A stretch of DNA of 53,463 bases, taken from positions 1 through 53,463 of the forward strand of contig QCQE01000008.1 of NCBI GenBank assembly GCA_003212275.1. The letters are read 5' to 3'. The position numbers and the translations under genes were made by a program. The stretch's first letter is position 1. Each line of letters begins with the position of its first letter. The notes beneath the pieces are model-generated. The model made no database searches and was not told where the DNA came from. It saw only the letters and a list, made by a program, of their open reading frames with translations. Positions 2,390 through 15,947 of this stretch are shown in pieces. This DNA comes from Pelagibacteraceae bacterium AG-447-N18 (GTDB lineage: Bacteria; Pseudomonadota; Alphaproteobacteria; Pelagibacterales; Pelagibacteraceae).

Positions 2390-3238
2390 TTATTCTTTGT
2401 AAGGAACAACCTGGTGTTTTTGAGTACCAAGTTTATCTATGCCTAAAACTACTTCTTCCCCGCCTTTTAAAAAATGAGGTGGTTTCATATTCTCTCCAAC
2501 ACCTGGGGGCGTCCCGGTGCAACAAATATCACCAGGGTGTAAACTCATACACGAGCTCATATAAGAAACTAAAGTTTTAACATCAAAAATCATTTTACTT
2601 GTATTTCCAGTTTGCATCCTTTTTCCATTTACATCTAAAAACATGTTTAAATTTTGATAGTCTGGTAATTCATCTGAAGTAATTATGAATGGGCCTATTG
2701 GACCGAAAGTATCAAAACCCTTTCCTTTATCCCAAGTTAAACCTCTATTCTTTTGAAAATCTCTTTCACTAACATCATTAACTAGAAAAAAACCAAGAAC
2801 ATGGTCTAAGGCGTTTTCAATACTGACATTTGTAGCTTTTTTTCCAATTACAAAACCAATTTCAACTTCCCAATCAGTATGATTAGATCCCTTAGGAACA
2901 ATGATAGGATCGTTTGGTCCAGTAATACAACTAGTGAATTTTGAGAAAATAATCGGTTCTTTTGGTATTGGCAAATTTTGTTCTTCGGCATGATCTTTGA
3001 AATTTAAACCAATACCAATAAATTTTGATGGGTTAGAAACGCATGCACCTATTCTAGAACTTGAGTCAAGCTTTGGTAAACTTGAAATATCAGTTTTTTT
3101 TATTTTCTCTAATGTATCAAAATTCAATGTGTCAGGGTTTAAATCATCAATTATTGATGACAAATCTCGGTAATTGTTTTCACTATCTATGATTGCTGGT
3201 TTTTCTTCTCCAACACTACCTATTCTACATAATTTCAT
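2390..3238 (-). CDS. Fumarylacetoacetate hydrolase (FAH) family enzyme
   Basis: The 282-aa protein has the FAH C-terminal catalytic fold. Visible signature elements are GIGLNFKDHAEE (His83), the metal-binding acids in DWEVEIGFV (Glu124 and Glu126) and VNDVSERD (Asp155), followed by the KGFDTFGPIGP segment near residue 173. FAH relatives act on 2-oxo acids as hydrolases, decarboxylases, hydratases or lyases using a divalent metal, and sequence alone does not say which. It is the most downstream gene of a minus-strand group led by iolD, so a role in processing an inositol-derived 2-oxo acid is plausible inference. Confidence 0.85.
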   Translation of the reverse strand: MKLCRIGSVGEEKPAIIDSENNYRDLSSIIDDLNPDTLNFDTLEKIKKTDISSLPKLDSSSRIGACVSNPSKFIGIGLNFKDHAEEQNLPIPKEPIIFSKFTSCITGPNDPIIVPKGSNHTDWEVEIGFVIGKKATNVSIENALDHVLGFFLVNDVSERDFQKNRGLTWDKGKGFDTFGPIGPFIITSDELPDYQNLNMFLDVNGKRMQTGNTSKMIFDVKTLVSYMSSCMSLHPGDICCTGTPPGVGENMKPPHFLKGGEEVVLGIDKLGTQKHQVVPYKE

Positions 3239-3299
3239 ATTTCTCTTCCTAGACTTTAATAATTAGCTCCTTTTGTAGTAAATGAATTTTATTCACTAG

Positions 3300-4202
3300 T
3301 CAATAATTTGTAGTTCTTGCTAGTCGAGCTGCACCTCGAACACCACTTGCATCACCAAATTTAGGTTTTAAAAAAGTCCCCTCAAATTCACCCCCTGCTA
3401 CAAATTTTTTCATTTTTTGTTTGATTTCATCTAAAAAATTTATTTCGTTTGATACCCCACCCCCAAAAACAAACACATCTGGGTCAATAATATTAACAAC
3501 AGTAGCCAAGGACATAGCGAGTTGATCCTTATATTTATCAATTAATTTTTCTGCATCTAAATCAAGTTTTCTATGCATCTCAAATATTTTTTGAGCAGAT
3601 AAATCTTTTTTAAACTCATTTTTGAACGCTTTAGAAATACCTATGCCTGCAACAAAGTTCTCTATTTCCCCAGCTCTTAAATTAGTTTTTTTTATTTGAA
3701 CACCTTCAATACAAGCGCTCGGTATTTGATTATGCCCCCATTCTCCAGTAATCCCATTAGGTCCATTTACAATTCGTTTATCTATAACTAAACCACCCCC
3801 AACACCAGATCCAAGAATTACCCCAAAAACTATTTTGTAATGTTTTCCAGAACCATCTATTGCTTCTGATAAAGCAAAACAGTTTGCATCATTTTCACAA
3901 TATATTTCTTTACCAATCTCACTTCGTAAATCTCTTTGTAAAGGTTTACCATTAATCCAAAAAGAGTTGGGTGCATTCTTAACTAATCCTGTTTGGATAG
4001 AGTGAATACCAGGATGACACACACCCACCGGTAACTCTTTACCAGCTTTACGCTCAAGTTCGATAACTATTTTTTTTATTATAGATAATGTATCTTTATA
4101 ATTTTTTGGAACTTCAGTTCTTTCTCTATGATGTTCATTGCCAACATCATCTAATAATACATACTCTATTTTACTTGCTCCAAGATCAATACCAATCTGC
4201 AT
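3300..4202 (-). CDS. ROK-family sugar kinase with degenerate zinc motif
   Basis: The 300-aa protein begins with the phosphate-binding IGIDLGASKIEYVLLD. It carries the catalytic aspartate in ENDANCFA (Asp105) and the ROK signature GVILGSGVGGGLVIDKRI followed by GEWGHN (Glu154, His157). ROK kinases phosphorylate hexoses or N-acylhexosamines. The usual Cys-x-Cys-Gly-x2-Gly-Cys zinc site after the GH motif is not intact: only Cys164 remains and the expected final GCxE reads GEIENF. This points to a non-zinc variant, and the substrate may not be a standard hexose. It lies 3 bp behind a Gfo/Idh/MocA gene in the iolD operon. Confidence 0.85.
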   Translation of the reverse strand: MQIGIDLGASKIEYVLLDDVGNEHHRERTEVPKNYKDTLSIIKKIVIELERKAGKELPVGVCHPGIHSIQTGLVKNAPNSFWINGKPLQRDLRSEIGKEIYCENDANCFALSEAIDGSGKHYKIVFGVILGSGVGGGLVIDKRIVNGPNGITGEWGHNQIPSACIEGVQIKKTNLRAGEIENFVAGIGISKAFKNEFKKDLSAQKIFEMHRKLDLDAEKLIDKYKDQLAMSLATVVNIIDPDVFVFGGGVSNEINFLDEIKQKMKKFVAGGEFEGTFLKPKFGDASGVRGAARLARTTNY

Positions 4203-4205
4203 ATT

Positions 4206-5366
4206 TTATCTCATTAATTTATTTATTTCTTTATTTATAAAAAGTTTAGGAATTTTACATGATGTACTAAGTCTAATTGGTTTATTTGTTTTAGCAGACT
4301 GCATGGTTGATTGTATCAAATCAAGCACATGCAAAGATACTTCTCCATTACATCTATGGGTTTTTTTTTTATCAATACAATAAGCCATTTCTGCAAGACC
4401 AACTCCTCTGTAATTAGCGTTAGTAGGTGACTCATTTGCTCTAGAACTTTGAGTTCTAATATTGATTTTTCCTAGTGGCATTTGATTTGTTTTAAATTCT
4501 TTCCATGGGCTTCCTAATTTTTTACATACATAAACTGAACCACCAAACATGTTTGGATCTGGCACGATCATTGAACCTTTTGTTCCATAAAGTTCAATAT
4601 GATTTCTTTGATGAGCTATAACATCAAAAGATAAAGTAAGTCTTATTATACTTCCATTTTTAAATATAATTGTTGTAAAATATGTTGTTGGACATTCTAC
4701 CTTTATTTTTTTTCCCTTTTTAGGTCCAATGCCAATTGTTCTAAATCTTGAACCTTTCATTAAACTTGCAGCTTTAACCTCTTTTGCTGGACCCAATAAA
4801 TTTACTAATGCTGTGAGATAATAAGGTCCCATATCAATTACTGGACCACCTTCTTTTTTTGCAAACCATGGTTCTGGGTCAGGATGATAAGATTGAACTC
4901 CAGGAAAAGCAAAAATCGCATTACCTAAATTTACTTTTCCTATATTTTTACTTTCTAATAATTCTTTCGATTTTTGATTGCCACCTCCTAGAAAAGTATC
5001 TGGAGCATTTCCTAAGTATAATTTCTTTTTTTTTGAAAGCTTTAATAATTCTTTTCCATCTTTTAAATTAATTGCTAGTGGTTTTTCTGAGTATACATGT
5101 TTTCCATTTAACAAAGACTTTTTTGCAATTTGGTAATGAACTTTTGGAGGGGTTAGATTTAATATTATTTCAACCTGTTTATCTTTGAGTAAATTACTTA
5201 CCGAAACTGCTTTAATTTTATAAATTTTAGCGCATTTCTTAGCCACTTTTTCTCTAACATCTGCACACTTAATTATTTTAAAATTCTTAAAATATTTGTG
5301 AGCTCTGAAATATGTTTCTGCAATATGACCACAACCAATTAAGCCAACTTTAAATACTTTGCTCAT
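4206..5366 (-). CDS. Gfo/Idh/MocA family NAD(P)-dependent oxidoreductase
   Basis: The 386-aa protein has an N-terminal Rossmann fold (KVGLIGCGHIAETYF), the EKPLAI motif at residues 94-99 that contributes the catalytic lysine region, and a C-terminal Gfo/Idh/MocA alpha/beta domain containing GGPVIDMGPYY near residue 173. Family members oxidise cyclitols, sugars or their amino derivatives at one hydroxyl. It is separate from the clearer IolG at 11929 and lies 5 bp from iolD, so it may act on another inositol isomer or on a later intermediate. The exact substrate is unknown. Confidence 0.88.
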   Translation of the reverse strand: MSKVFKVGLIGCGHIAETYFRAHKYFKNFKIIKCADVREKVAKKCAKIYKIKAVSVSNLLKDKQVEIILNLTPPKVHYQIAKKSLLNGKHVYSEKPLAINLKDGKELLKLSKKKKLYLGNAPDTFLGGGNQKSKELLESKNIGKVNLGNAIFAFPGVQSYHPDPEPWFAKKEGGPVIDMGPYYLTALVNLLGPAKEVKAASLMKGSRFRTIGIGPKKGKKIKVECPTTYFTTIIFKNGSIIRLTLSFDVIAHQRNHIELYGTKGSMIVPDPNMFGGSVYVCKKLGSPWKEFKTNQMPLGKINIRTQSSRANESPTNANYRGVGLAEMAYCIDKKKTHRCNGEVSLHVLDLIQSTMQSAKTNKPIRLSTSCKIPKLFINKEINKLMR

Positions 5367-5371
5367 TAGGG

Positions 5372-7216
5372 CTATACTCCCTGTCTTTGTTTTGCTTTAC
5401 CTTCTTTGTGTAATTTTAGAGCTTTTTCGTTTTCCTTAGTTTTGGGAATTTCTAAAGTTGGACTTTCCCAGTACGCTGATCCTTCAAGCCATTGATATGA
5501 ATGAGTTTTAATTGAAATAACGTAGGTTACTTTTGATTTTTTTGCTCTTTTGAAAGCTTCTTCTAATTCACTAATAGAACTTACTTCTTCAGACTTCGCC
5601 CCCATACTTTCTGCATGTTTTGCAAAATTTACTTTTACTAAATTTGAAACATTTGAGCTCTCAAACAAACAATTAAATTCTTTTCCACCTTTAAATAATT
5701 GAAGTCTATTAATAACAGCGTGACCACCATTATCACAGACAATTACTATTAATTTATTATTAGTTATTACAGATGAATATATATCTGAATTGTAAAGTAA
5801 ATATGATCCATCACCTACAAATGTAATAACTTCTTTGTTTGGATTGGCCATTTTAATTCCCAAAGCTCCAGAAATTTCATAGCTCATACAACTAAAGCCC
5901 CACTCTGTTTCATGGGTATTAAGTTCTCTTGGTCTCCAAATTTGAACAACTTCACCTACCAAACCTCCAGCTGCAGTGACGGCAATATCACTTGGATCAG
6001 AGTTTCTATAAATTGCACCAACTGCATGAGCATAACTTGGAAGTTTTTGGTTAGTTGGTCCACTTTCTTTATCAACATATTCATTCCAAGACTTAAGTTC
6101 ATCTCTGGATTTTTTATGCCATTCCTCGGATGCTTTCCAATCACCTAAAGCTTGTGATAGTTCATTTAGAGAAACTTTTGCATCTCCAATAATTGATTGT
6201 GCCATATGCTTACTAGCATCAAATCTTGCAACATTAATTGATACTAGAGAAAAGTTTGGATTTTCAAAATTGGACCATGACCCAGTTGTGAAATCTCCTA
6301 ACTTAGTTCCAATAGCAATTGCTAAATCAGTTTTTTTTGCAAAGTCGTTTGCTGCTTTTCCTCCTAAACCTCCGATAGGTCCTAAAAAATGAGAATGATC
6401 TCTTTTCATAGAAGAATAACCCATTACAGTTTGTGTTACAGGTATATTATGTTTAATTGCAAAAGTAGAAAGTTCCTCCATTGCATCTGAGTAAAAAACA
6501 CCTCCACCAGAAATTATGATTGGATTTTTTGATTTTTTAATTTTTTCAGCTGCTTCTTTAATTTGAAAATCATCAGGTCTTGGTCTTCGTATATTATGGA
6601 TTTTTTCTTTAAAAAAATCTTCAGGATACTCAAAAATTTCTCCTTGTATATCCTGACATAAAGATATGCATACTGGACCACAATCAGCTGGGTCTAATAA
6701 AACTTGTACAGCTTGGGGAAATGTTTGTAAAATTTGTTCTGGTCTGGTTATTCTATCAAAATATTTTGTAACTGGTTTAAAAGCATCATTTTGAGTAATT
6801 CCTGGATTATTAAAATGTTCTACTTGTTGTAAAACTGGATCAGGCATTCTGTTTGCGTAAGTATCACCTGGAAGAAATAGAATTGGTAGTCTATTACTCA
6901 TCGCAACTGCAGCCGCTGTTACCATATTTGTAGAACCAGGACCTACAGAACTTGTTGCTACAAATACTTGTTTTCTTCTTTTTGCTCTAGCGTAAGCAAT
7001 TCCTGTTAAGGCCATGTTTTGCTCATGATGACCTCTATAAGTTGGAAGTTTATCTTTATTTTCCTCTAAAGCTTGTCCTAAACAAGCTACATTACCATGA
7101 CCAAATATTCCAAAAGCACCAGCGAATAAAGGTTCTTTTTTACCATCGATTAGAATTTTTTGAGAAGTCAGGAACTTTACAATTGCATGAGCACATGTAA
7201 GCTTTATTTTTTTCAT
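5372..7216 (-). CDS. iolD: IolD: 3D-(3,5/4)-trihydroxycyclohexane-1,2-dione acylhydrolase (ThDP-dependent)
   Basis: The 614-aa protein is a ThDP enzyme of the acetolactate-synthase fold with IolD-specific sequence: FGHGNVACLGQAL near residue 38, PTYRGHHEQNMAL with the ThDP-activating Glu65, TSSVGPGSTNMVTAAA, PDPVLQQVEH and NDAFKPVTKYFDRI. The ThDP-metal motif starts at GDG 468-470 and ends at CDNGGHAVINRLQ near 494. IolD opens the ring of the inosose dehydration product to give 5-deoxy-D-glucuronate. It heads a minus-strand operon with a Gfo/Idh/MocA enzyme, a ROK kinase and an FAH protein, and is divergent from the aldehyde dehydrogenase at 7271. Confidence 0.93.
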   Translation of the reverse strand: MKKIKLTCAHAIVKFLTSQKILIDGKKEPLFAGAFGIFGHGNVACLGQALEENKDKLPTYRGHHEQNMALTGIAYARAKRRKQVFVATSSVGPGSTNMVTAAAVAMSNRLPILFLPGDTYANRMPDPVLQQVEHFNNPGITQNDAFKPVTKYFDRITRPEQILQTFPQAVQVLLDPADCGPVCISLCQDIQGEIFEYPEDFFKEKIHNIRRPRPDDFQIKEAAEKIKKSKNPIIISGGGVFYSDAMEELSTFAIKHNIPVTQTVMGYSSMKRDHSHFLGPIGGLGGKAANDFAKKTDLAIAIGTKLGDFTTGSWSNFENPNFSLVSINVARFDASKHMAQSIIGDAKVSLNELSQALGDWKASEEWHKKSRDELKSWNEYVDKESGPTNQKLPSYAHAVGAIYRNSDPSDIAVTAAGGLVGEVVQIWRPRELNTHETEWGFSCMSYEISGALGIKMANPNKEVITFVGDGSYLLYNSDIYSSVITNNKLIVIVCDNGGHAVINRLQLFKGGKEFNCLFESSNVSNLVKVNFAKHAESMGAKSEEVSSISELEEAFKRAKKSKVTYVISIKTHSYQWLEGSAYWESPTLEIPKTKENEKALKLHKEGKAKQRQGV

Positions 7217-7270
7217 AATTGTAGATATATTCTCTTAAAATTTCGCTTAATTAACCATAAAATAAAAATT

Positions 7271-8713
7271 ATGTATAGTAAATTTGGGCAGTTCATTGAT
7301 GGTAAGTGGCAACAAGCGGAAAAAAAAGAAACTTACGATGTTATAAATCCTGCTACAGAAGAAATTATTGGCAAAGCATCTAAAGCATCTTCAGCAGATG
7401 TTCAAAAAGCTCTTAAATCTGCAGAGAAAGGTTTGGAAGTTTGGAAAAACACTTTACCTTGGCAGAGGTCATATATTATCAGAAAAATTGCTGATCTTTT
7501 AAGAGAAAAACAAGATGTTTTAGCAAAATGGTTAACAATTGAAGTTGGAAAACCTTTGGCAGAGGGAATTGGCGAAACTGGTGGGGCTGCTGATATTTTT
7601 GAGTGGAATGCTGAAGAAACAAAAAGAATTTATGGACAAACAGTCGAAAGTCGATTTCCAGATACGAGAGTTCATGTTTATTATCAGCCAGTTGGAGTTG
7701 TAGCAGCTTTAGTGCCATGGAATTTTCCTTTAATTCTAGCAGCAAGAAAAATTTCAACAGCATTAGCTGCCGGGTGTTCAGTAATTTGTAAGCCTGATGT
7801 AATTACTCCAGGAACAGTAATGGAGTTAGTAGATATTTGTAAAGAAGCGGGAGTCCCTCCTGGAGTTGTAAACTTATTATCAGGAGATCCCGAAAGTATT
7901 TCAAATGAGTTGTTAGAGTCTGATATTATTAAAAAGGTTTCAATTACTGGATCAACAAGAGTAGGTAAATTAATCTTAAAAAAGGCCGCAGACAAAGTTC
8001 AAAGAGTCACAATGGAGCTTAGTGGACACTCACCTTTTATAGTTTTTGATGATGTTGATATAAATAAAGTTGCAGATATGGCAATTACTGCAAAATTTAG
8101 AAATAATGGTCAAGTTTGTATTTCACCTAACAGATTTTATATACAAGAAAATAAAAAAGACGAATTCATTAATGCGTTTATTGAAAGAACAAAAAAATTA
8201 AAAATTGGAAATGGTTTAGATGAAGGAGTTCAATTAGGTCCTCTAACAACTGCAAAAAGATTAGGAGAAATCGAAGAATTAGTTGAAACAACTAAAAAGG
8301 AAGGAGCAAAAGTTTTATTGGGTGGAAAAAGACCTCAAGGTTTTAACAAAGGATATTTTTATGAGCCAACAGTTTTTGACAATGTAAAGGACAATTTCAC
8401 AATAATGAAACAAGAACCATTTGGTCCTTTAGTTCCAATGTTATCATTTAAAACTTTTGATGAAGTAGTTGAGAGAGCTAATAATAATGACTTAGGATTA
8501 TGTAGTTATATTTATACAAATTCTATGGATAAAGCTCACAGAGCTTCAGAATTAATGGAAACCGGTACTGTTGCGGTAAATACTCCTGCAGTTGCGATAG
8601 CTGAAGCACCTTTTGGCGGAATTAAACAAACTGGATATGGACGTGAAGGTGGTTCAATGGCAATTAAAGATTATCTTAATATAAAGTACACTCACCTTGG
8701 TTTGAAATCTTAA
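7271..8713 (+). CDS. NAD(P)-dependent aldehyde dehydrogenase (semialdehyde dehydrogenase-like)
   Basis: The start chosen is the ATG at 7271 (MYSKFGQFIDGKWQ, 480 aa). An upstream in-frame extension would run into the divergent iolD gene and lacks ALDH homology. Catalytic features are PWNF at 149-152, general-base Glu249 in MELSGHSPF, nucleophile Cys283 in GQVCISPNRF and a C-terminal PFGGIKQTGYGREGG. The length and MELSGHSPFIVFDD wording resemble succinate- or 2-oxoglutarate-semialdehyde dehydrogenases. Because it is divergent from iolD and followed by an aldolase 2 bp on, it may oxidise an aldehyde made by either enzyme; this is inference. Confidence 0.9.
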   Translation: MYSKFGQFIDGKWQQAEKKETYDVINPATEEIIGKASKASSADVQKALKSAEKGLEVWKNTLPWQRSYIIRKIADLLREKQDVLAKWLTIEVGKPLAEGIGETGGAADIFEWNAEETKRIYGQTVESRFPDTRVHVYYQPVGVVAALVPWNFPLILAARKISTALAAGCSVICKPDVITPGTVMELVDICKEAGVPPGVVNLLSGDPESISNELLESDIIKKVSITGSTRVGKLILKKAADKVQRVTMELSGHSPFIVFDDVDINKVADMAITAKFRNNGQVCISPNRFYIQENKKDEFINAFIERTKKLKIGNGLDEGVQLGPLTTAKRLGEIEELVETTKKEGAKVLLGGKRPQGFNKGYFYEPTVFDNVKDNFTIMKQEPFGPLVPMLSFKTFDEVVERANNNDLGLCSYIYTNSMDKAHRASELMETGTVAVNTPAVAIAEAPFGGIKQTGYGREGGSMAIKDYLNIKYTHLGLKS

Positions 8714-8714
8714 A

Positions 8715-9506
8715 ATGAGACCAAATAAAATAAAAAAGATGATGAGAGACGGTCAGCAAATAATTAATGGCTGGTTACAAATTCCTAGCTCTTTTTCAGC
8801 GGAGGTAATGTCTCATCAAGGTTGGGACTCGCTTACAATTGATATGCAACATGGTGTTATAGATTATCCAAATGCATTACAAATGCTGCAATCAATTTCA
8901 TCAACGGATGTTACTCCTTTAGCAAGAGTAAATTGGAACGAGCCAGGACAAATAATGAAAATTTTAGATGCTGGATGCTACGGTATAATTTGTCCAATGG
9001 TTAGTAACAAATCTGAAGCAGAAAAATTTGTTCAAGCATGCATGTACCCCCCTAAAGGTTATAGAAGTTTTGGACCAATTAGAGGATTAATTTATGGAGG
9101 TTCAGATTATGGAGATTTTGCAAATGATGAGATTTTAAAAATGGCAATGATAGAGACAAAAGAGGCCTTGGATAAATTAGATGAAATTATGAGTACACCT
9201 GGAATAGATGGAATTTACATTGGACCTGCTGATTTAAGTCTGGCTATAGGTCAAAAACCAGCTTTTGATAATCCTGAAGGAAGCCCAACTTATGAAAAGA
9301 TTTTGAATATCTTAGAACATGCAAAAAAAAATAAAATTTTCGCGGGTGTACATAATGCTACTCCAGAGTATGCTAAGAAAATGCTTAATCTAGGATTTAA
9401 TTTAGTAACTATAGGATCCGATCAAAGGTATATAAGTGCAGGTGCGAAAGATGCTGTATCTAAATTAAAATCAATTAAATCAAAACAAGACTCTAAAGCT
9501 TACTAA
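8715..9506 (+). CDS. HpcH/HpaI family class II 2-oxo-acid aldolase
   Basis: The 263-aa TIM-barrel protein carries the HpcH/HpaI catalytic set: His46 in DMQHG, Arg71 in LARVNW, metal ligands Glu147 in AMIETKEAL and Asp173 in GPADLSLAIG. Relatives reversibly split 4-hydroxy-2-oxo acids into pyruvate and an aldehyde (4-hydroxy-2-oxoheptanedioate, 2-keto-3-deoxy-glucarate and -rhamnonate types). The gene follows the aldehyde dehydrogenase by 1 bp and precedes a hydroxyacid dehydrogenase by 6 bp, so the three form one operon. A 4-hydroxy-2-oxoadipate substrate would fit inositol catabolism but is speculation. Confidence 0.9.
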   Translation: MRPNKIKKMMRDGQQIINGWLQIPSSFSAEVMSHQGWDSLTIDMQHGVIDYPNALQMLQSISSTDVTPLARVNWNEPGQIMKILDAGCYGIICPMVSNKSEAEKFVQACMYPPKGYRSFGPIRGLIYGGSDYGDFANDEILKMAMIETKEALDKLDEIMSTPGIDGIYIGPADLSLAIGQKPAFDNPEGSPTYEKILNILEHAKKNKIFAGVHNATPEYAKKMLNLGFNLVTIGSDQRYISAGAKDAVSKLKSIKSKQDSKAY

Positions 9507-9512
9507 ATTTAA

Positions 9513-10478
9513 GTGTCAGATAAAAAAAAAATTTTAATAATTCAAGCTATTCATAAAGCGGGGATAGATCTTATAAAGAATAACCCAAATTATGATTATG
9601 AGATTATTGAAAACATAGATGACAAAGATATTAAACAAAAAATTTTGGAGTGTGATGGTTTGTCAATTAGAACAGCAAATTTATCTAGTGAATTAATTAA
9701 TATATCAAAAAAACTTAAAATTATATCTCGCCACGGCGTTGGGTACGACAATATTGACCTCAAGTCTTCTAAAGAAAAAAATATCACCTTGGCAATTACG
9801 GCTACAGCAAATGCTGTTGCGGTGGCAGAGCATGTTATGTTTATGTTGCTCAATATATCGAAGAGAAAAAACATGTATGATGAGGCTGTTAAATCAGGAA
9901 ATTTTTCTAACAGAAACAAACTTCCAAAAACAATTGAACTTTGGAAAAAAAATATTTTAATTGCTGGATTTGGAAGAATAGGTCAATCTTTAATTAGAAG
10001 ATGTGAAGGATTTGAAATGAATGTTTTTGTTTATGATCCATTTGTTTCAAAAGATATTATTGAGGAATTTGGTGGAAAAAAAGTTGAAGATCTTACAGAA
10101 GCAGTAAAATCTATGGATGCCATTTCTTTACATATGCCTCTTAATGAAAAAACGAAAAATATTATTAATTATGACTTACTTAAAACAATGAGGAAAAATT
10201 GTATAATCATTAATGCTGCAAGAGGTGGAATGATAAATGAGAATGACTTAGATAAAGCATTAAATGAAAGTCTTATATTTGGTGCAGGTTTAGATGTTTT
10301 TGAAACAGAACCACCTAAAGAAGATAATCCTTTGCTAAAAAACAATAAAGTTTTTTTAAGTCCTCACACTGCTGCATTTACTGAGGAATGCATGATAAGA
10401 ATGGGAAAAGAAACAATACAAAATATAATTGATTTTTTTGAAAAAAAATTACACAAATCAAAAATTATTAAATTTTAA
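9513..10478 (+). CDS. D-2-hydroxyacid dehydrogenase (SerA/glyoxylate reductase-like)
   Basis: The 321-aa protein starts at a GTG. It has the D-isomer hydroxyacid dehydrogenase layout: an N-terminal half-domain ending in SRHGVGYDNID, an NAD Rossmann motif GFGRIG at 152-157, and catalytic Arg237 (NAARGGM), Glu266 (FETEPP) and His285 (SPHTAAF). It lacks the ACT domain of full-length SerA. Such enzymes interconvert 2-oxo and D-2-hydroxy acids. Placement behind the HpcH/HpaI aldolase suggests handling of a short hydroxy- or oxo-acid product of the island rather than serine synthesis. Confidence 0.88.
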   Translation: MSDKKKILIIQAIHKAGIDLIKNNPNYDYEIIENIDDKDIKQKILECDGLSIRTANLSSELINISKKLKIISRHGVGYDNIDLKSSKEKNITLAITATANAVAVAEHVMFMLLNISKRKNMYDEAVKSGNFSNRNKLPKTIELWKKNILIAGFGRIGQSLIRRCEGFEMNVFVYDPFVSKDIIEEFGGKKVEDLTEAVKSMDAISLHMPLNEKTKNIINYDLLKTMRKNCIIINAARGGMINENDLDKALNESLIFGAGLDVFETEPPKEDNPLLKNNKVFLSPHTAAFTEECMIRMGKETIQNIIDFFEKKLHKSKIIKF

Positions 10479-10480
10479 TT

Positions 10481-10981
10481 ATGCGAATAAATTTCAAAAA
10501 TTTTGGACTATTAGAGACATTAGTGTTGTTATCGTTGGTATATGTGGTTGGGATGTTGATTTGGACTGCGAGTACAAGGCCCGCAGTTGAAGCAAAAGCT
10601 AACTTAGTTAAAGAAAATCATAAGAAAGTAGTCGATTTTATTAATGGAGAAATAAATAATTGTGGGAATAATGATGAAGGTAAATTAACTGTTTGGGGTG
10701 ATCCCTGCAATGGCGAATGGTCTTCATCTAAAGTTGTGAATTATATAAACAAAAATCTTAATATAGAGAATCCTTTTTCAGAGGATACTAAAGTAAAAAC
10801 TGATCCTGATCCTAGAATTAAAGCAGAAGGTAAAGCAGGGCAATCAGTTGAGATGGGTGTTATATTTGTGATGTCATCAAATTTTTTACCTGATCCTGGA
10901 TCTGAATGGGTTGTGGGTACTTGTTTTAAATCTCCATGTGTTGCTGCTGGAAATAATGAACTAACTTCACTCTATAGATAG
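10481..10981 (+). CDS. Uncharacterised protein with one N-terminal membrane anchor
   Basis: The 166-aa protein is not recognised. It has a short basic start, one hydrophobic helix at about residues 10-29 with an embedded acid (GLLETLVLLSLVYVVGML), and a polar, probably periplasmic domain with four cysteines (61, 76, 148, 153) that could form two disulfides. The helix with an early glutamate recalls type IV pilin-like proteins, but the glutamate is at +3, not +5, from the only candidate cleavage glycine. It begins 2 bp after the hydroxyacid dehydrogenase and its stop abuts the convergent iolE stop, so it is probably the last gene of that operon. Confidence 0.75.
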   Translation: MRINFKNFGLLETLVLLSLVYVVGMLIWTASTRPAVEAKANLVKENHKKVVDFINGEINNCGNNDEGKLTVWGDPCNGEWSSSKVVNYINKNLNIENPFSEDTKVKTDPDPRIKAEGKAGQSVEMGVIFVMSSNFLPDPGSEWVVGTCFKSPCVAAGNNELTSLYR

Positions 10982-11884
10982 TCAATTTTTATAAATTTCA
11001 ATTTCAGATTTTTTTAATGTATCTGTAAGATATTTATAACCAATTTTTGCATACTCTAACGGATTTGCTTTTGCCGGATCCTGCTCTGCCTCAACCACCA
11101 ACCATCCTGAATAATTATTATTTTTTAATACATTAAATAAAGGTTGATAATCAATACAGCCATCTCCTGGTACTGTAAACGCACCCTCTAAAAAAGCACC
11201 TCTAAAACTTAAATCCTCTTTTAAAGATTTTTCCAGAACTTGTTTTCTTATATCTTTACAATGGACGTGCAAAATTCTTTCATGATAATTTTGTAATATG
11301 TATTTTGAGTCCCCTTTTGCAAATAACATGTGTCCTGTATCTAATGTTAATTTTACACTTTCATGGGTATTTTCTATAAGTCTTTCAGTATCTTTTTGGG
11401 TTTCAATTATTGTTCCCATATGATGATGATATGCTAAAGGCATCCCTTCATCCTCTAAATATTTTCCTAGTTCAGAAATTTTTTCACAAAACTTCTGCCA
11501 CTCATCCTTTTCCATTTGAGGCCGAGTTGATAATTTCCTGTTGGGATCTCCTTGTATAGAACCAGAAACTTCCGCGAAAACTATACAAGGTGCATCACAA
11601 TCTTTAAATAAATCTAGTTGTTCTTGAATAGATTTTTTTTCTTCCTCAACAGAATTTTTTCTTAAATTTGCGCCATACCATCCTGAGCAAAGTTTAAGAT
11701 TAAATTGATCTAATTTTGGAATTAATTCAGAAGATTTCTTTGGAAATTTTCCACCAGACTCTATGCCTATATAGCCTGCTTCATTGGCTTCTTTTAAACA
11801 TTGTTCTAATGTAGTTTCACCACCTAACTCAGGCATGTCATCATTACTCCATGCAATGGGTGCAACTCCTAATTTTACTGACAT
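10982..11884 (-). CDS. iolE: IolE: myo-inosose-2 dehydratase
   Basis: The 300-aa TIM-barrel protein of the xylose-isomerase-like group matches IolE closely: KLGVAPIAWSNDDMPELGG at the start, GWYGANL near residue 68, a metal/active-site HHHMGT at 153-158, LDTGHMLFAKGD at 181-192, HVHCKD at 206-211 and GDGCIDYQPLF. IolE removes water from scyllo-inosose to give 3D-(3,5/4)-trihydroxycyclohexane-1,2-dione, the substrate of IolD. It is a single gene on the minus strand between two plus-strand units and is divergent from iolG with a 44-bp gap. Confidence 0.93.
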   Translation of the reverse strand: MSVKLGVAPIAWSNDDMPELGGETTLEQCLKEANEAGYIGIESGGKFPKKSSELIPKLDQFNLKLCSGWYGANLRKNSVEEEKKSIQEQLDLFKDCDAPCIVFAEVSGSIQGDPNRKLSTRPQMEKDEWQKFCEKISELGKYLEDEGMPLAYHHHMGTIIETQKDTERLIENTHESVKLTLDTGHMLFAKGDSKYILQNYHERILHVHCKDIRKQVLEKSLKEDLSFRGAFLEGAFTVPGDGCIDYQPLFNVLKNNNYSGWLVVEAEQDPAKANPLEYAKIGYKYLTDTLKKSEIEIYKN

Positions 11885-11928
11885 AAGAAATTTTTTTAGT
11901 TAAGTTATTATTTTAATACAAATTTTAA

Positions 11929-12930
11929 ATGATTGATATAGCTTTATTTGGACTTGGTAGAATTGGTATTATGCATGGAAAAAATTTAATGCGTAGTAAA
12001 GATTTTAATCTTAAATATATTTATGACATTGAACAAAAATTATCAAAAAAATATTCAAAAACATTAAAAACAAAAGCTATTAACAATCCATCTGTGGCTT
12101 ATAAAGATAAAGATATAAAAGCTATTTTTATTGCCTCAACAACATCGACACATATTAGATTTATTTTAGATGGTGTTAAAAATAGAAAAATTATCTTTTG
12201 TGAAAAACCACTGGATTTAAGTATTAAAAAAATTGAGTCCTGTAAAAAAAAAATTAATAAATTAAATCCAAAAATACAATTAGGTTTTAATAGACGATAT
12301 GATCCAACACACAATAATTTAAGAAAACAATTATTTAGTGGAAAAATAGGTAAATTAGAAAAAATTATTATCACTAGTCGTGATCCTGCCCCACCAACTA
12401 TGAAATATCTAAAAGAATCTGGTGGTATTTTTAGAGATATGATGATCCATGATTTTGATCTTGTTAGATTCTACCTTGGTAATGATGAGCCTGTAAAAAT
12501 AATAGCTTCTGGTAGCAACATATCAGACAAAAGATTTAATAAAATAAAAGATTTTGAATTAGCATCTACCATAATTAGATCTAGAGCTGGTGTTCAGTGC
12601 ATAATTACTAATTCCAGACATTGTAGTTTCGGTTATGATCAAAGAATAGAATTATTTGGATCAAAAGGTATGTTAATTTCAGAAAATAAAAGACAAAACG
12701 AGACATCTTTATATTCTGCGCAATCAACTTCGAACAAATCTCCTTTGCTTAATTTTTTTATTGAGAGGTATAAAGATGCTTATAAAAATCAATTAAAGGA
12801 TTTTGCGAAATATATAAGAAAGAAAATTCAACCTCTTGCAGGATTTGAAGAGGGAAGAAAAGCTCTAATAATTGCGAATGCAGCTCAAAAATCTTTACGA
12901 TCAAAAAAGTTTGAAAAACTTAATCTTTAA
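11929..12930 (+). CDS. iolG: IolG: inositol 2-dehydrogenase
   Basis: The 333-aa Gfo/Idh/MocA protein has a Rossmann motif GLGRIG at 8-13, CEKPLDLS starting at residue 91 and the IolG-type catalytic stretch GGIFRDMMIHDFDLVRF with Asp170 and His174. IolG oxidises myo-inositol to scyllo-inosose with NAD+, the first step of catabolism. The gene lies directly upstream of the ABC importer and divergent from iolE, which supports the assignment. No separate inositol regulator gene is present next to it. Confidence 0.9.
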   Translation: MIDIALFGLGRIGIMHGKNLMRSKDFNLKYIYDIEQKLSKKYSKTLKTKAINNPSVAYKDKDIKAIFIASTTSTHIRFILDGVKNRKIIFCEKPLDLSIKKIESCKKKINKLNPKIQLGFNRRYDPTHNNLRKQLFSGKIGKLEKIIITSRDPAPPTMKYLKESGGIFRDMMIHDFDLVRFYLGNDEPVKIIASGSNISDKRFNKIKDFELASTIIRSRAGVQCIITNSRHCSFGYDQRIELFGSKGMLISENKRQNETSLYSAQSTSNKSPLLNFFIERYKDAYKNQLKDFAKYIRKKIQPLAGFEEGRKALIIANAAQKSLRSKKFEKLNL

Positions 12931-12965
12931 TTGAATCAACCCTAAGTAGAATACAACCTGTCTGC

Positions 12966-12994
12966 TTTACAACTAAATGATATTTTGATTAGAT
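12966..12994 (+). promoter_or_regulatory. Possible promoter of the solute-binding protein gene
   Basis: In the 101-bp gap before the binding-protein gene, TTTACA (12966-12971) and TTAGAT (12989-12994) are separated by 17 bp, followed by an AAAGGGG ribosome site just before the ATG at 13032. The -10 match is weak and the region is AT-rich, so this is only a candidate. Confidence 0.3.
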
Positions 12995-13031
12995 TTTATT
13001 TTTAAAAGTTAACTTTAATTAAAGGGGAATA

Positions 13032-13955
13032 ATGAAAACAATAAAAAACTTTATATTAGCTTTAGCAGCATGGGCAATGATGTCTGTTTCTGCTTTAGCT
13101 GTGGATATAATTGTGGTTTCTCATGGTCAAGCAAACGATCCTTTCTGGTCAGTTGCTAAAAATGGAGTTGATGCTGGATGTAAAGACATGGGAGTGTCTT
13201 GTAAATACACAGCACCAGCAACTTTTGACATGGTAGAAATGGCAAAATTAATTGATAATGCTGTATCGCAAAAACCAAAAGGTATTGTGATCACATTACC
13301 AGATGCTGCTGCTTTAGGAAAATCGGTTAAAGCTGCGATTGCTGCTGGTATTCCTGTAATATCAATGAACTCTGGATCTGATGATTATGCATCTTTAGGA
13401 ATTAGTGCACACGTTGGACAAACTGAGTTTGAAGCAGGTGTAGGTGGTGGACAAAAAATGAAAGCCGCTGGTGGAAAAAAAGCATTATGCGTTAACCATG
13501 AGGTAGGAAACGTTGCACTTGATAGAAGATGTGCTGGTTTCAAAAAAGGTTTTGGTGGATCTGTTGATATTTTAGGTACATCAAATGACCCAACGGAAAT
13601 TCAAAAAGCTGTTGCTGCAAAATTAGGTGGTGGCTATGATACTATTCTAACTTTAGGTGCTGGATTATCTGGTGAAGCAGCTTTGAAAGCACTCGAGTCT
13701 GCTGGAAAAGTTGGTTCTGTAAGATTAGGAACATTTGATATGTCTCCAAATATGTTAAAAGCTGCTGCTGCAGGAAAAGTGGAGTTTTTAATTGACCAAC
13801 AGCAATATCTACAAGGATATTTACCAATAGCTATCTTTGGACAATATATGAGATGGGGAACAATGCCAGCGGGTGTAGTGATGACTGGACCTGGGTTTGT
13901 TACTCCTGACAATGCGTCTAAAGTAATTAAATGGGCAGCTCAAGGTTATAGATAA
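13032..13955 (+). CDS. Sugar/cyclitol ABC transporter periplasmic substrate-binding protein
   Basis: The 307-aa protein has a signal peptide (basic MKTIKN, hydrophobic core, cleavage expected after ALA at about residue 23). The mature protein is of the ribose/galactose periplasmic-binding type I fold: VVSHGQANDPFW at its start, KPKGIVITLPDA and GIPVISMNSG in the hinge-side strands. Six to seven other members of this class bind ribose, inositol or fructose. Placement next to iolG makes inositol the likely ligand, by context only. A strong terminator follows immediately, which would favour excess binding protein over membrane components. Confidence 0.9.
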   Translation: MKTIKNFILALAAWAMMSVSALAVDIIVVSHGQANDPFWSVAKNGVDAGCKDMGVSCKYTAPATFDMVEMAKLIDNAVSQKPKGIVITLPDAAALGKSVKAAIAAGIPVISMNSGSDDYASLGISAHVGQTEFEAGVGGGQKMKAAGGKKALCVNHEVGNVALDRRCAGFKKGFGGSVDILGTSNDPTEIQKAVAAKLGGGYDTILTLGAGLSGEAALKALESAGKVGSVRLGTFDMSPNMLKAAAAGKVEFLIDQQQYLQGYLPIAIFGQYMRWGTMPAGVVMTGPGFVTPDNASKVIKWAAQGYR

Positions 13956-13965
13956 AATATGAATT

Positions 13966-13995
13966 AAAGGCCTGACTAATGTTAGTCAGGCCTTT
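13966..13995 (+). terminator. Intra-operon Rho-independent terminator
   Basis: AAAGGCCTGACTAA (13966-13979) is exactly complementary to TTAGTCAGGCCTTT (13982-13995), giving up to 14 bp with a minimal TG loop, followed by more T residues to 14000. It lies 10 bp after the binding-protein stop and 30 bp before the permease start. Partial read-through would give high binding-protein and low permease/ATPase expression. Confidence 0.9.
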
Positions 13996-14025
13996 TTTTT
14001 AATCATCTTTAAATTATAATTTTTT

Positions 14026-15153
14026 ATGTCTGTAAAATCAGAGAGTATTCAATCTAAAAAAGATAGTGGACAAGATGAAAGACTTAAAAAAATTTCACCT
14101 CTTAGAGTTTTATTAAACAGACCAGAGCTTGGTGCTTTGGGTGGCTCAATTTTAGTTTTTATTTTTTTTGGAATAGTTGCTGGTGACACTGGAATGTTTA
14201 GCGCTTATGGGACATTAAATTTTTTAGATGTTTCAGCTAATTTAGGAATTATTGCTATTGCTGCTGCAATGTTAATGATCGGTGGAGAGTTTGATTTATC
14301 AATTGGTTCAATGATTGGTTTTGCAGGAATCTGTATCGCTATACCTGCAATTTATTGGGGCTGGCCTTTATGGACGAGTATTATTTTTGCTTTTGCCATG
14401 GCAGTACTAATTGGTTATTTCAATGGTATAATGGTAGTAAAAACTGGTCTACCATCCTTTATAGTAACACTAGCAATGTTGTTCATTTTAAGGGGGGCAA
14501 CTTTGGCTATTACGAGATTAATTACAGGAAGAACTCAAGTGCCAGGATTAAGAGTTTTAATAGAGGATGATCCAATCGCTTGGTTGTTTGCAACAGATAC
14601 TTTTCAATGGTTATTCACATGGCTTGGATCGATGAAATTAATTGCACTGAGAACTGACGGTACACCATTAGCTACAGGTATTCCACCATCAGTAATATGG
14701 TTTATTGCTCTTACATTATTTGCAACTTGGATACTTATGAAAACTAGATATGGAAATTGGATATTTGCATCAGGTGGAGATAAAGTTGGTGCTACAAATG
14801 TTGGTGTACCTGTTGGAAGAGTAAAAATAAGTCTATTTATTGGAACAGCTGTAGCATCGACAATATTTGCTTGTATTCAAGTTTTAGATGCAGGTTCTGC
14901 AGATACTATGAGAGGAACTTTAAAAGAATTGGAAGCAATAGCAGCTGCCGTGGTTGGCGGGTGTCTTTTGACTGGAGGTTATGGCTCTGCCATTGGAGCA
15001 GCATTGGGTGCTATTATTTTTGGCACTGTTTCAATGGGAATTTTTTATACAGATGTTGATACTGATTGGTTTAAGGTTTTTTTAGGTGCAATGATGTTAA
15101 TTGCAGTAGTATTCAATAATTATATTAGAAAAAAAGTTACGGAGACTAAGTGA
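14026..15153 (+). CDS. Sugar/cyclitol ABC transporter permease (RbsC-like)
   Basis: The 375-aa inner-membrane protein has a polar 35-residue N-terminal stretch followed by roughly ten hydrophobic segments. RbsC-family motifs include [36 protein letters not shown] and [19 protein letters not shown] near the C-terminus. It forms the translocation channel with the ATPase encoded immediately downstream, whose start overlaps this stop (TGATG). It is separated from its binding protein only by a terminator hairpin. Confidence 0.92.
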
Positions 15154-15947
15154 TGTCTGAATATTTAGTTCAATTCAATAATATAAGTAAATTTTTTGGT
15201 AAAGTAATTGCTTTGAAAGATGTCACTATGAAACTAAAAAAAGGTGAAATAATGTGCTTACTTGGTGACAATGGAGCTGGAAAATCTACTTTGATAAAAA
15301 CTTTAGCAGGGGTTCATAAACCTGATGAAGGTGAAATTATTTTTGAGGATCAAAAAATAGTTTTTGACTCACCACGAGATGCTTTGGATATTGGGATAGG
15401 TACTGTTTATCAAGATTTAGCATTAGTTTCTCTTATGAGTGTAACTAGAAATTTTTTTATGGGCAGAGAGCCACAAAAAGGTTTACCTTTTTTCAGAACT
15501 TTTGATATTGAAAAAGCAAACATTATAGCTGCAGAAAGAATGGGACAAATAGGTATCGATGTGAGAGACCCGTCACAAGCTGTAGGCACGATGTCTGGGG
15601 GTGAAAGACAATGTCTCGCAATTTCTAGAGCAATTTATTTTGGAGCAAAAGTTTTGGTATTAGATGAACCAACGTCAGCACTAGGTGTACACCAAGCTTC
15701 TATGGTTTTGAAATATATTGTTAAAGCTGCATCACAAGGTTTAGCTGTAATTTTAATTACACACAACGTTCATCATGCTTATCCTGTTGGAAATAGTTTT
15801 ACAGTTTTAAATCGAGGTAAAAGCATGGGAACATTTCAAAAAAAAGATATATCTAGAGAAAAACTTTTAAGCATGATGGCAGGTGGTGAGGAATTAGATA
15901 AGTTAGAAGTCGAACTTAAAGAAATGGACCGAATAGGAAATAATTAG
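15153..15947 (+). CDS. Sugar/cyclitol ABC transporter ATP-binding protein
   Basis: The start is taken as the ATG at 15153 (264 aa), which overlaps the permease stop as TGATG and has GGAGA 7 bp upstream; a GTG one codon earlier is possible. Walker A is GDNGAGKST, the signature is MSGGERQ, and Walker B is [11 protein letters not shown] followed by [11 protein letters not shown]. Unlike RbsA it has one ATPase domain, so it must work as a homodimer, as in FrcA-type importers. It energises uptake by the adjacent permease. Confidence 0.92.

Follow-up and report, generated by a model that had tools for sequence, protein, structure and literature searches.

What becomes of 5-deoxyglucuronate in a SAR11 bacterium whose recognisable inositol genes end with the enzyme that makes it? 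The question is raised by a stretch of 53,463 nucleotides, here called the window (contig QCQE01000008.1, assembly GCA_003212275.1), from Pelagibacteraceae bacterium AG-447-N18, whose genome amounts to 1.12 Mb in 36 contigs and is 94.8% complete. An island at positions 2,390 to 15,947 encodes the upper inositol pathway: inosose dehydratase IolE (10982-11884, minus strand; TIGR04379, 412.5 bits at a cut-off of 290), inositol 2-dehydrogenase IolG (11929-12930, plus strand; TIGR04380, 356.9 bits, cut-off 355) and 3D-(3,5/4)-trihydroxycyclohexane-1,2-dione hydrolase IolD, whose product is 5-deoxyglucuronate (5372-7216, minus strand; TIGR04377, 804.7 bits, cut-off 715). All three exceed the curated cut-offs, IolG barely. 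Divergent from iolD are three further genes, encoding an aldehyde dehydrogenase (ALDH), an aldolase of the HpcH/HpaI family and a D-2-hydroxyacid dehydrogenase (D2HDH), with 54 bp separating the iolD and ALDH starts. This trio very probably belongs to inositol catabolism, and we put at about four fifths the probability that it is the lower inositol pathway of SAR11. Its mode of action is more tentative: the reading we favour, at not quite an even chance, is an oxidative, dehydratase-free route replacing IolB, IolC and IolJ.

A first-pass annotation of the island had located the genes named above together with an importer, a second Gfo/Idh/MocA enzyme, a ROK kinase and an FAH-family protein, and all of them lie where it placed them. 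It reported no iolB, iolC, iolJ or iolA, and none of the four was recognised by eye among the window's open reading frames (ORFs) of at least 120 amino acids. For iolB and iolC this extends well beyond the window. The IolB/KduI family PF04962 has no match in the window's own genome. The profile of the 5-deoxyglucuronate isomerase IolB (TIGR04378) matches none of the 197 genomes sampled from the order, of which 149 combine a completeness of at least 90% with no more than 5% contamination; the same search matched in three of 14 control genomes. Nor does any of the 197 have a match to the 5-dehydro-2-deoxygluconokinase IolC (TIGR04382) above the cut-off; weaker PfkB-type matches occur in 188, and the best one in the window's genome (E 4.1e-20) is below the cut-off. 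For iolJ no genome search was made, and its absence is judged from the window ORFs only. The absence of iolA holds for the window only, because methylmalonate-semialdehyde dehydrogenase (MMSDH, IolA) is encoded elsewhere in the genome (G000:C1:117806-119221, 690.2 bits, cut-off 448.5). MMSDH is present in 28 of 30 SAR11 genomes tested.

The distribution of the trio follows that of iolD. Of the 197 genomes, 72 have IolD, and a close aldolase (a definition that excludes more distant relatives, 27-37% identical) is present in 71 of these 72, as against four of the 125 genomes without IolD. In G064, the sole IolD-bearing genome without a close aldolase, IolD is cut by a contig end, and in three of the four opposite cases (G078, G118 and G148) the aldolase and a cut ALDH are found at a contig end. 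The fourth, G192, has a decayed island (L242, G192:C14): ALDH, ROK and FAH are there, the aldolase is interrupted by an internal stop, and the contig has no IolD. We further compared 80 SAR11 loci (L031-L110), scoring each gene only where the flank was long enough. The trio tracks iolD here as well, with ALDH and the aldolase in every locus scored (76 and 75, respectively) and D2HDH in 71 of 72; in L088 a 33%-identical D2HDH stands in the D2HDH place. The remaining conserved genes are the second Gfo/Idh/MocA oxidoreductase (74 of 74), a small protein of 166 amino acids (69 of 71), IolE (64 of 65), IolG (53 of 56) and the importer genes (each 53 of 54). Seven islands from two other genera are rearranged: three have the whole set, two (G034 and G126) have all except the aldolase, and in two the D2HDH is not shown in the stretch. 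The 166-residue protein adjoins D2HDH in all five rearranged islands whose stretch includes the latter.

None of the three trio proteins reaches the cut-off of its best family. The ALDH (7271-8713, plus strand, the start being set by us at the first ATG, 7271) resembles succinate-semialdehyde dehydrogenase (TIGR01780, 486.4 bits, cut-off 646.35) and is putatively a 5-deoxyglucuronate dehydrogenase; its catalytic Cys, Glu and Asn are identical across 12 aligned rows. The class II aldolase (8715-9506, plus strand; PF03328, 113.8 bits, cut-off 25), putatively a retro-aldolase releasing malonate semialdehyde, has the metal and catalytic residues of its class, with the active-site H, R, E and D aligned in 12 rows. 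It falls below the equivalog cut-offs of both HpaI (TIGR02311, 163.1 vs 368.8) and GarL (TIGR03239, 137.8 vs 406.75). The nearest solved sequence is SwHKA, a hydroxyketoacid aldolase of this family from Sphingomonas wittichii (184.8 bits), followed by HpaI (138.4) and GarL (116.4). The window aldolase shares the MQH, RSFG and MIET motifs with SwHKA, but has His where SwHKA has Phe210 (a site placed by us from the alignment); E. coli GarL has Leu there, and its motifs are unlike those of the window aldolase. Hydroxypyruvate-using aldolases of the SwHKA kind are marked by an aromatic residue in place of the conserved Leu at this site. The His was considered as a marker of hydroxypyruvate use and rejected: it is not diagnostic, because aldolases from galactarate clusters (L195, L196) share it. 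Finally, the NAD-type D2HDH (9513-10478, plus strand; PF02826/PF00389), a putative 5-deoxyglucarate 2-dehydrogenase, has the triad R237, E266, H285 in 24 of 24 aligned rows and Asp175, typical of NAD use, in 22; the score of its best family, PGDH, is 265.2 bits at a cut-off of 454.

The association recurs outside SAR11. Among 385 genomes of Alphaproteobacteria, 56 showed an IolD, two of them being SAR11; the other 54 have an IolB match of any score in 33 cases and above the cut-off in 20. Of the 23 genomes with IolB below 80 bits, 15 have a close aldolase, defined here by a score of at least 220 bits, as against 7 of the 31 with more (Fisher p=0.0023, uncorrected for relatedness); three alternative pairs of cut-offs yield p 0.0041, 0.024 and 0.027, likewise uncorrected. 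L155, L160 and L184 have the aldolase beside or close to IolD, and in G226 and G530 it is located with IolG and IolE, the D2HDH being with IolD. On a tree of 60 IolD rows, SAR11 groups with L145-L147 (100/100), and the label marking an aldolase in the locus changes five times, compared with 15.7 in shuffles. Eight alphaproteobacterial genomes with IolD showed no IolB (G323, G252, G283, G317, G322, G395, G486 and G563; loci L163, L165-L168, L171, L174 and L178); all but G252 are also without a close aldolase, and G322 is 74% complete.

On plasmids, where the best 60 of 195 IolD records and the best 40 of 64 records of aldolase relatives were considered, at least 22 pairs of IolD and aldolase lie within 15 kb of each other, all among the 27 top-ranked IolDs and none among the other 33 listed. 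Ten iol-linked islands were read, within the retrieved stretch of each genome. In all ten the ALDH, aldolase and D2HDH genes are mutual neighbours and near iolD, the Shinella trio being about 7 kb away with an importer in between; in the Jiella island the matches of IolD and of ALDH are both split in two. We did not find iolE in the Shinella stretch or an iolG orthologue in that of R. leguminosarum, and relatives of FAH, GarD, GudD and KdgD occur in none of the ten stretches. Both iolB and iolC are present in two, both from Paracoccus, and MMSDH is encoded beside the K. aerogenes island. That plasmids from several genera carry the trio close to iolD suggests a travelling cassette. Two groups were not counted as iol-linked, namely the plasmid aldolases L195-L198 and L200, found without iolD among galactarate genes, other genes or unannotated ones, and the D2HDH-aldolase-D2HDH groups of L213 and L215 (G544, G373), whose neighbours, judged by eye, are not iol genes.

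Since IolB and IolC were not found, the trio tracks iolD and it recurs in unrelated bacteria, a bypass of the 2-deoxy-5-keto-D-gluconate phosphate route, as the first-pass annotation had proposed, is the best reading. Its chemistry was retained in part: ALDH acting on 5-deoxyglucuronate and the release of malonate semialdehyde are kept as proposals, whereas dehydration by FAH finds no support, and the conserved D2HDH had no role in that scheme. The oxidative route is favoured because each trio enzyme yields the substrate class of the next one, from an aldehyde to a 2-hydroxy acid, then to a 2-oxo acid hydroxylated at C3 and C4, and finally to retro-aldol products. The importer, IolG, IolE and IolD, assigned by family, would act as usual and lead by known chemistry to 5-deoxy-D-glucuronate. 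ALDH would oxidise its C1, giving 5-deoxy-D-glucarate; D2HDH with NAD+ would oxidise the C2 hydroxyl, giving 2-oxo-3,4-dihydroxyadipate; and the aldolase would cleave the latter between C3 and C4 into hydroxypyruvate and malonate semialdehyde, to be converted to acetyl-CoA by the MMSDH encoded elsewhere. Thus ALDH, D2HDH and the HpcH aldolase would substitute one-for-one for IolB, IolC and IolJ, with hydroxypyruvate instead of dihydroxyacetone phosphate, at zero ATP cost and with two additional NADH. The island might then be regarded as complete for myo-inositol catabolism, its lower branch being oxidative and free of kinases, a description that we find plausible if slightly short of probable.

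Consistent with this, the window's genome has only one IlvD, no PF04295 and, for the enolase superfamily (MR_MLE), one match of 22.7 bits, which is below the cut-off. An excerpt of PMC10099721 describes hydroxypyruvate use by SwHKA, and according to an excerpt of PMC7610986, 19 of 571 screened class II aldolases accept hydroxypyruvate. The stereochemistry, as we derive it, also fits: C2 of 5-deoxy-D-glucarate is R, corresponding to the D series of the dehydrogenase family, and the 2-oxo acid has at C3 the S configuration, which the same excerpt of PMC7610986 calls exclusive for the aldolase family.

FAH, cast as the pathway dehydratase in the first-pass annotation, lies in a variable flank (2390-3238, minus strand), next to the ROK-family sugar kinase (3300-4202, minus strand; PF00480). 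Its best family is 2,4-didehydro-3-deoxy-L-rhamnonate hydrolase, with a score below the cut-off (NF053535, 389.8 bits vs 500). Both genes are accessory. FAH is present in 41 of the 64 SAR11 loci with a flank of at least 3.3 kb and in 35 of the 56 with 9 kb, and thus not seen in 23 and 21, respectively; ROK is present in 43 of 67 loci with 2.3 kb and in 37 of the 56. Comparison of these 56 loci demonstrates that the islands diverge past the second Gfo/Idh/MocA gene. Of the genes sought, 26 have ROK and FAH only, among them the window and its 17 close kin. In 28, a second importer, a mutarotase-like gene and a ribokinase stand beside iolD (L074-L076, L078-L080 and others), followed by an aldo-keto reductase, ROK and FAH in eight and by MR_MLE and a PdxA-like gene in 17. 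The L088 flank has ROK, MR_MLE and the PdxA-like gene, and that of L063 FAH alone. One copy of each module family was tested: the ribokinase scores 310.9 bits, above the cut-off of 299.65, the MR_MLE protein is closest to L-rhamnonate dehydratase (229.1 vs 393) and the mutarotase to L-fucose mutarotase (92.8 vs 141). Hence the longer relatives place FAH in one run of genes with a ribokinase, a sugar mutarotase and an aldo-keto reductase, and we read ROK and FAH as the remainder of a swappable neighbouring sugar module rather than as inositol genes. FAH as the dehydratase is therefore rejected, being variable, hydrolase-like and part of this module. The ROK kinase as a substitute for IolC is weakened, as no copy was seen in 24 of 67 loci and there is no isomerase to precede it, and the PfkB kinase that 28 of the 56 loci have near iolD is rejected in this role for the copy tested, which is the ribokinase.

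A number of observations weigh against the oxidative route, and several of them would suit a dehydratase. ALDH would still produce 5-deoxyglucarate, but an enzyme of the enolase superfamily or of PF04295 would convert it to 4-hydroxy-2-oxoadipate, from which the aldolase would release pyruvate and malonate semialdehyde, D2HDH being secondary. MR_MLE is found above the cut-off in 18 of 23 tested SAR11 genomes with IolD (in G034 with 30.7 bits only) and in three of seven without, and PF04295 in 21 of 23 and seven of seven (28 of 30 together), so that a possible dehydratase is available to most SAR11 genomes tested; the window's genome, which shows neither, is only 94.8% complete. In 18 of the 56 loci MR_MLE is also no more than about 10 kb from iolD, although this holds for none of the window's 17 close kin, and in L080 it is set apart from iolD by the importer, the mutarotase-like gene and the ribokinase; its family, too, points to L-rhamnonate. 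Aldolase relatives with 54% identity sit in galactarate clusters with garD, and in such clusters the donor half of the aldolase is pyruvate. Pyruvate carboxylase in the P. ferrooxidans island and ppsA beside that of K. aerogenes again point to pyruvate, the product originally proposed for the window, whereas the product we favour is hydroxypyruvate, of whose use the His at the Phe210 site gives no mark. On the other hand, FAH is not conserved, no GarD, GudD or KdgD relative accompanies the trio in the ten plasmid stretches, and D2HDH, present almost wherever it could be scored, would be left unexplained. We consider the dehydratase route rather unlikely.

The other contrary observations concern the integrity of the trio and its relation to IolB. 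The aldolase of G034 and G126 lies on another contig, off the island; the aldolases of L160 and L184 show no ALDH next to them, and that of L184 no D2HDH either; and G226, G356 and G530 keep an IolB-like gene, below the cut-off, elsewhere. Moreover, in both Paracoccus islands the trio is accompanied by iolB and iolC, and it may therefore extend the range of substrates instead of taking the place of the pathway. It could be devoted to another inositol isomer, to a rhizopine-like compound (an amino- or O-methyl-inositol) or to what becomes of malonate semialdehyde, while an unrecognised isomerase and sugar kinase take 5-deoxyglucuronate. The binding protein of the importer is rhizopine-like, below the cut-off, and a MocE-type ferredoxin is encoded near the Jiella island. 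Still, the candidates for such a kinase are the inconstant ROK and a PfkB protein that is absent from the window's kin and, in the copy tested, a ribokinase, and no protein of the KduI/IolB fold was found in the window's genome; this alternative appears distinctly unlikely. Less probable again is an exchange of roles, in which ALDH would oxidise malonate semialdehyde, D2HDH would reduce hydroxypyruvate to D-glycerate, and C1 or C2 would be oxidised by the second Gfo/Idh/MocA enzyme in SAR11 or by a short-chain dehydrogenase/reductase (SDR) elsewhere. The invariable presence of the former in SAR11 loci, an SDR gene after iolD or iolE in several plasmid islands, and the hydroxypyruvate reductases among the relatives of D2HDH, below the cut-off, agree with it; but a separate MMSDH exists, and the two proposed oxidases belong to different families.

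Compared with the canonical pathway of Bacillus, Salmonella and Rhizobium (IolG-E-D-B-C-J-A), the island shares IolG, IolE, IolD, a sugar-type ABC importer and, in the genome, MMSDH. It differs in having no detected IolB or IolC, and in the proposed oxidation of C1 and C2 and use of a class II HpcH aldolase, which would replace isomerisation, phosphorylation and IolJ. In galactarate and glucarate catabolism (GarD, GarL, GarR), an oxidised sugar acid is similarly cleaved by an HpcH-family enzyme into a 2-oxo acid and a semialdehyde; that system has a dehydratase, GarD or GudD, of which the plasmid stretches contain no relative. We recognised no description of the oxidative route, which is predicted from genomes only, in the open-access literature, the scope of our search. 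A large survey of iol clusters defined them, according to an excerpt of PMC9430895, by at least three of iolB, iolC, iolD and iolE; by this definition it would miss these islands, because only iolD and iolE of the four are present.

If the oxidative route is correct, a vague annotation is resolved into three assayable enzyme predictions. SAR11 are among the most abundant bacterial groups of the ocean and require external glycine or serine. It is conceivable, though rather unlikely, that an inositol finish free of phosphate intermediates, with oxidation of C1 and C2 followed by retro-aldol cleavage, is widespread, and that in SAR11 hydroxypyruvate is transaminated to serine. Inositol would then supply these bacteria with carbon plus the missing amino acid, and a route free of phosphate and ATP would suit an oligotroph. 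No paper linking hydroxypyruvate to the glycine/serine need of SAR11 was found in the open-access literature.

The other genes of the island are the following. The sugar-type substrate-binding protein of the importer (13032-13955, plus strand) is closest to the rhizopine-binding family (NF052284, 316.5 bits, under the cut-off of 420), and the permease (14026-15153, plus strand) and ATPase (15150-15947, plus strand) were identified by eye as ORFs. The second Gfo/Idh/MocA oxidoreductase (4206-5366, minus strand; PF01408/PF22725), directly downstream of iolD, may be a candidate for another inositol isomer or an extra redox step. The protein of 166 residues (10481-10981, plus strand), between the D2HDH gene and iolE, has no Pfam family. 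Its predicted structure, of low confidence (mean pLDDT 54.9), features a long N-terminal helix, which is hydrophobic, and C-terminal strands; the FGLLE at the start of the helix resembles that of a type IV pilin.

Three side observations remain. Between L033 and the window, the iol core is 96-100% identical, the adjoining ccdA-like and flavodoxin-like genes 83-86% and FAH 61%, as if the edge had been swapped by recombination. The relocated aldolase of G126 (L248, 7694-8560) and G034 (L247, 9507 onward) is divergent from the gene of a beta-hydroxyacid dehydrogenase, GarR/GlxR-like by eye and 98% identical between the two genomes. Finally, the trio and iolD are present on plasmids of Klebsiella typed as conjugative (L203, L240 and L211), the sources being a clinical sample and milk from bovine mastitis.

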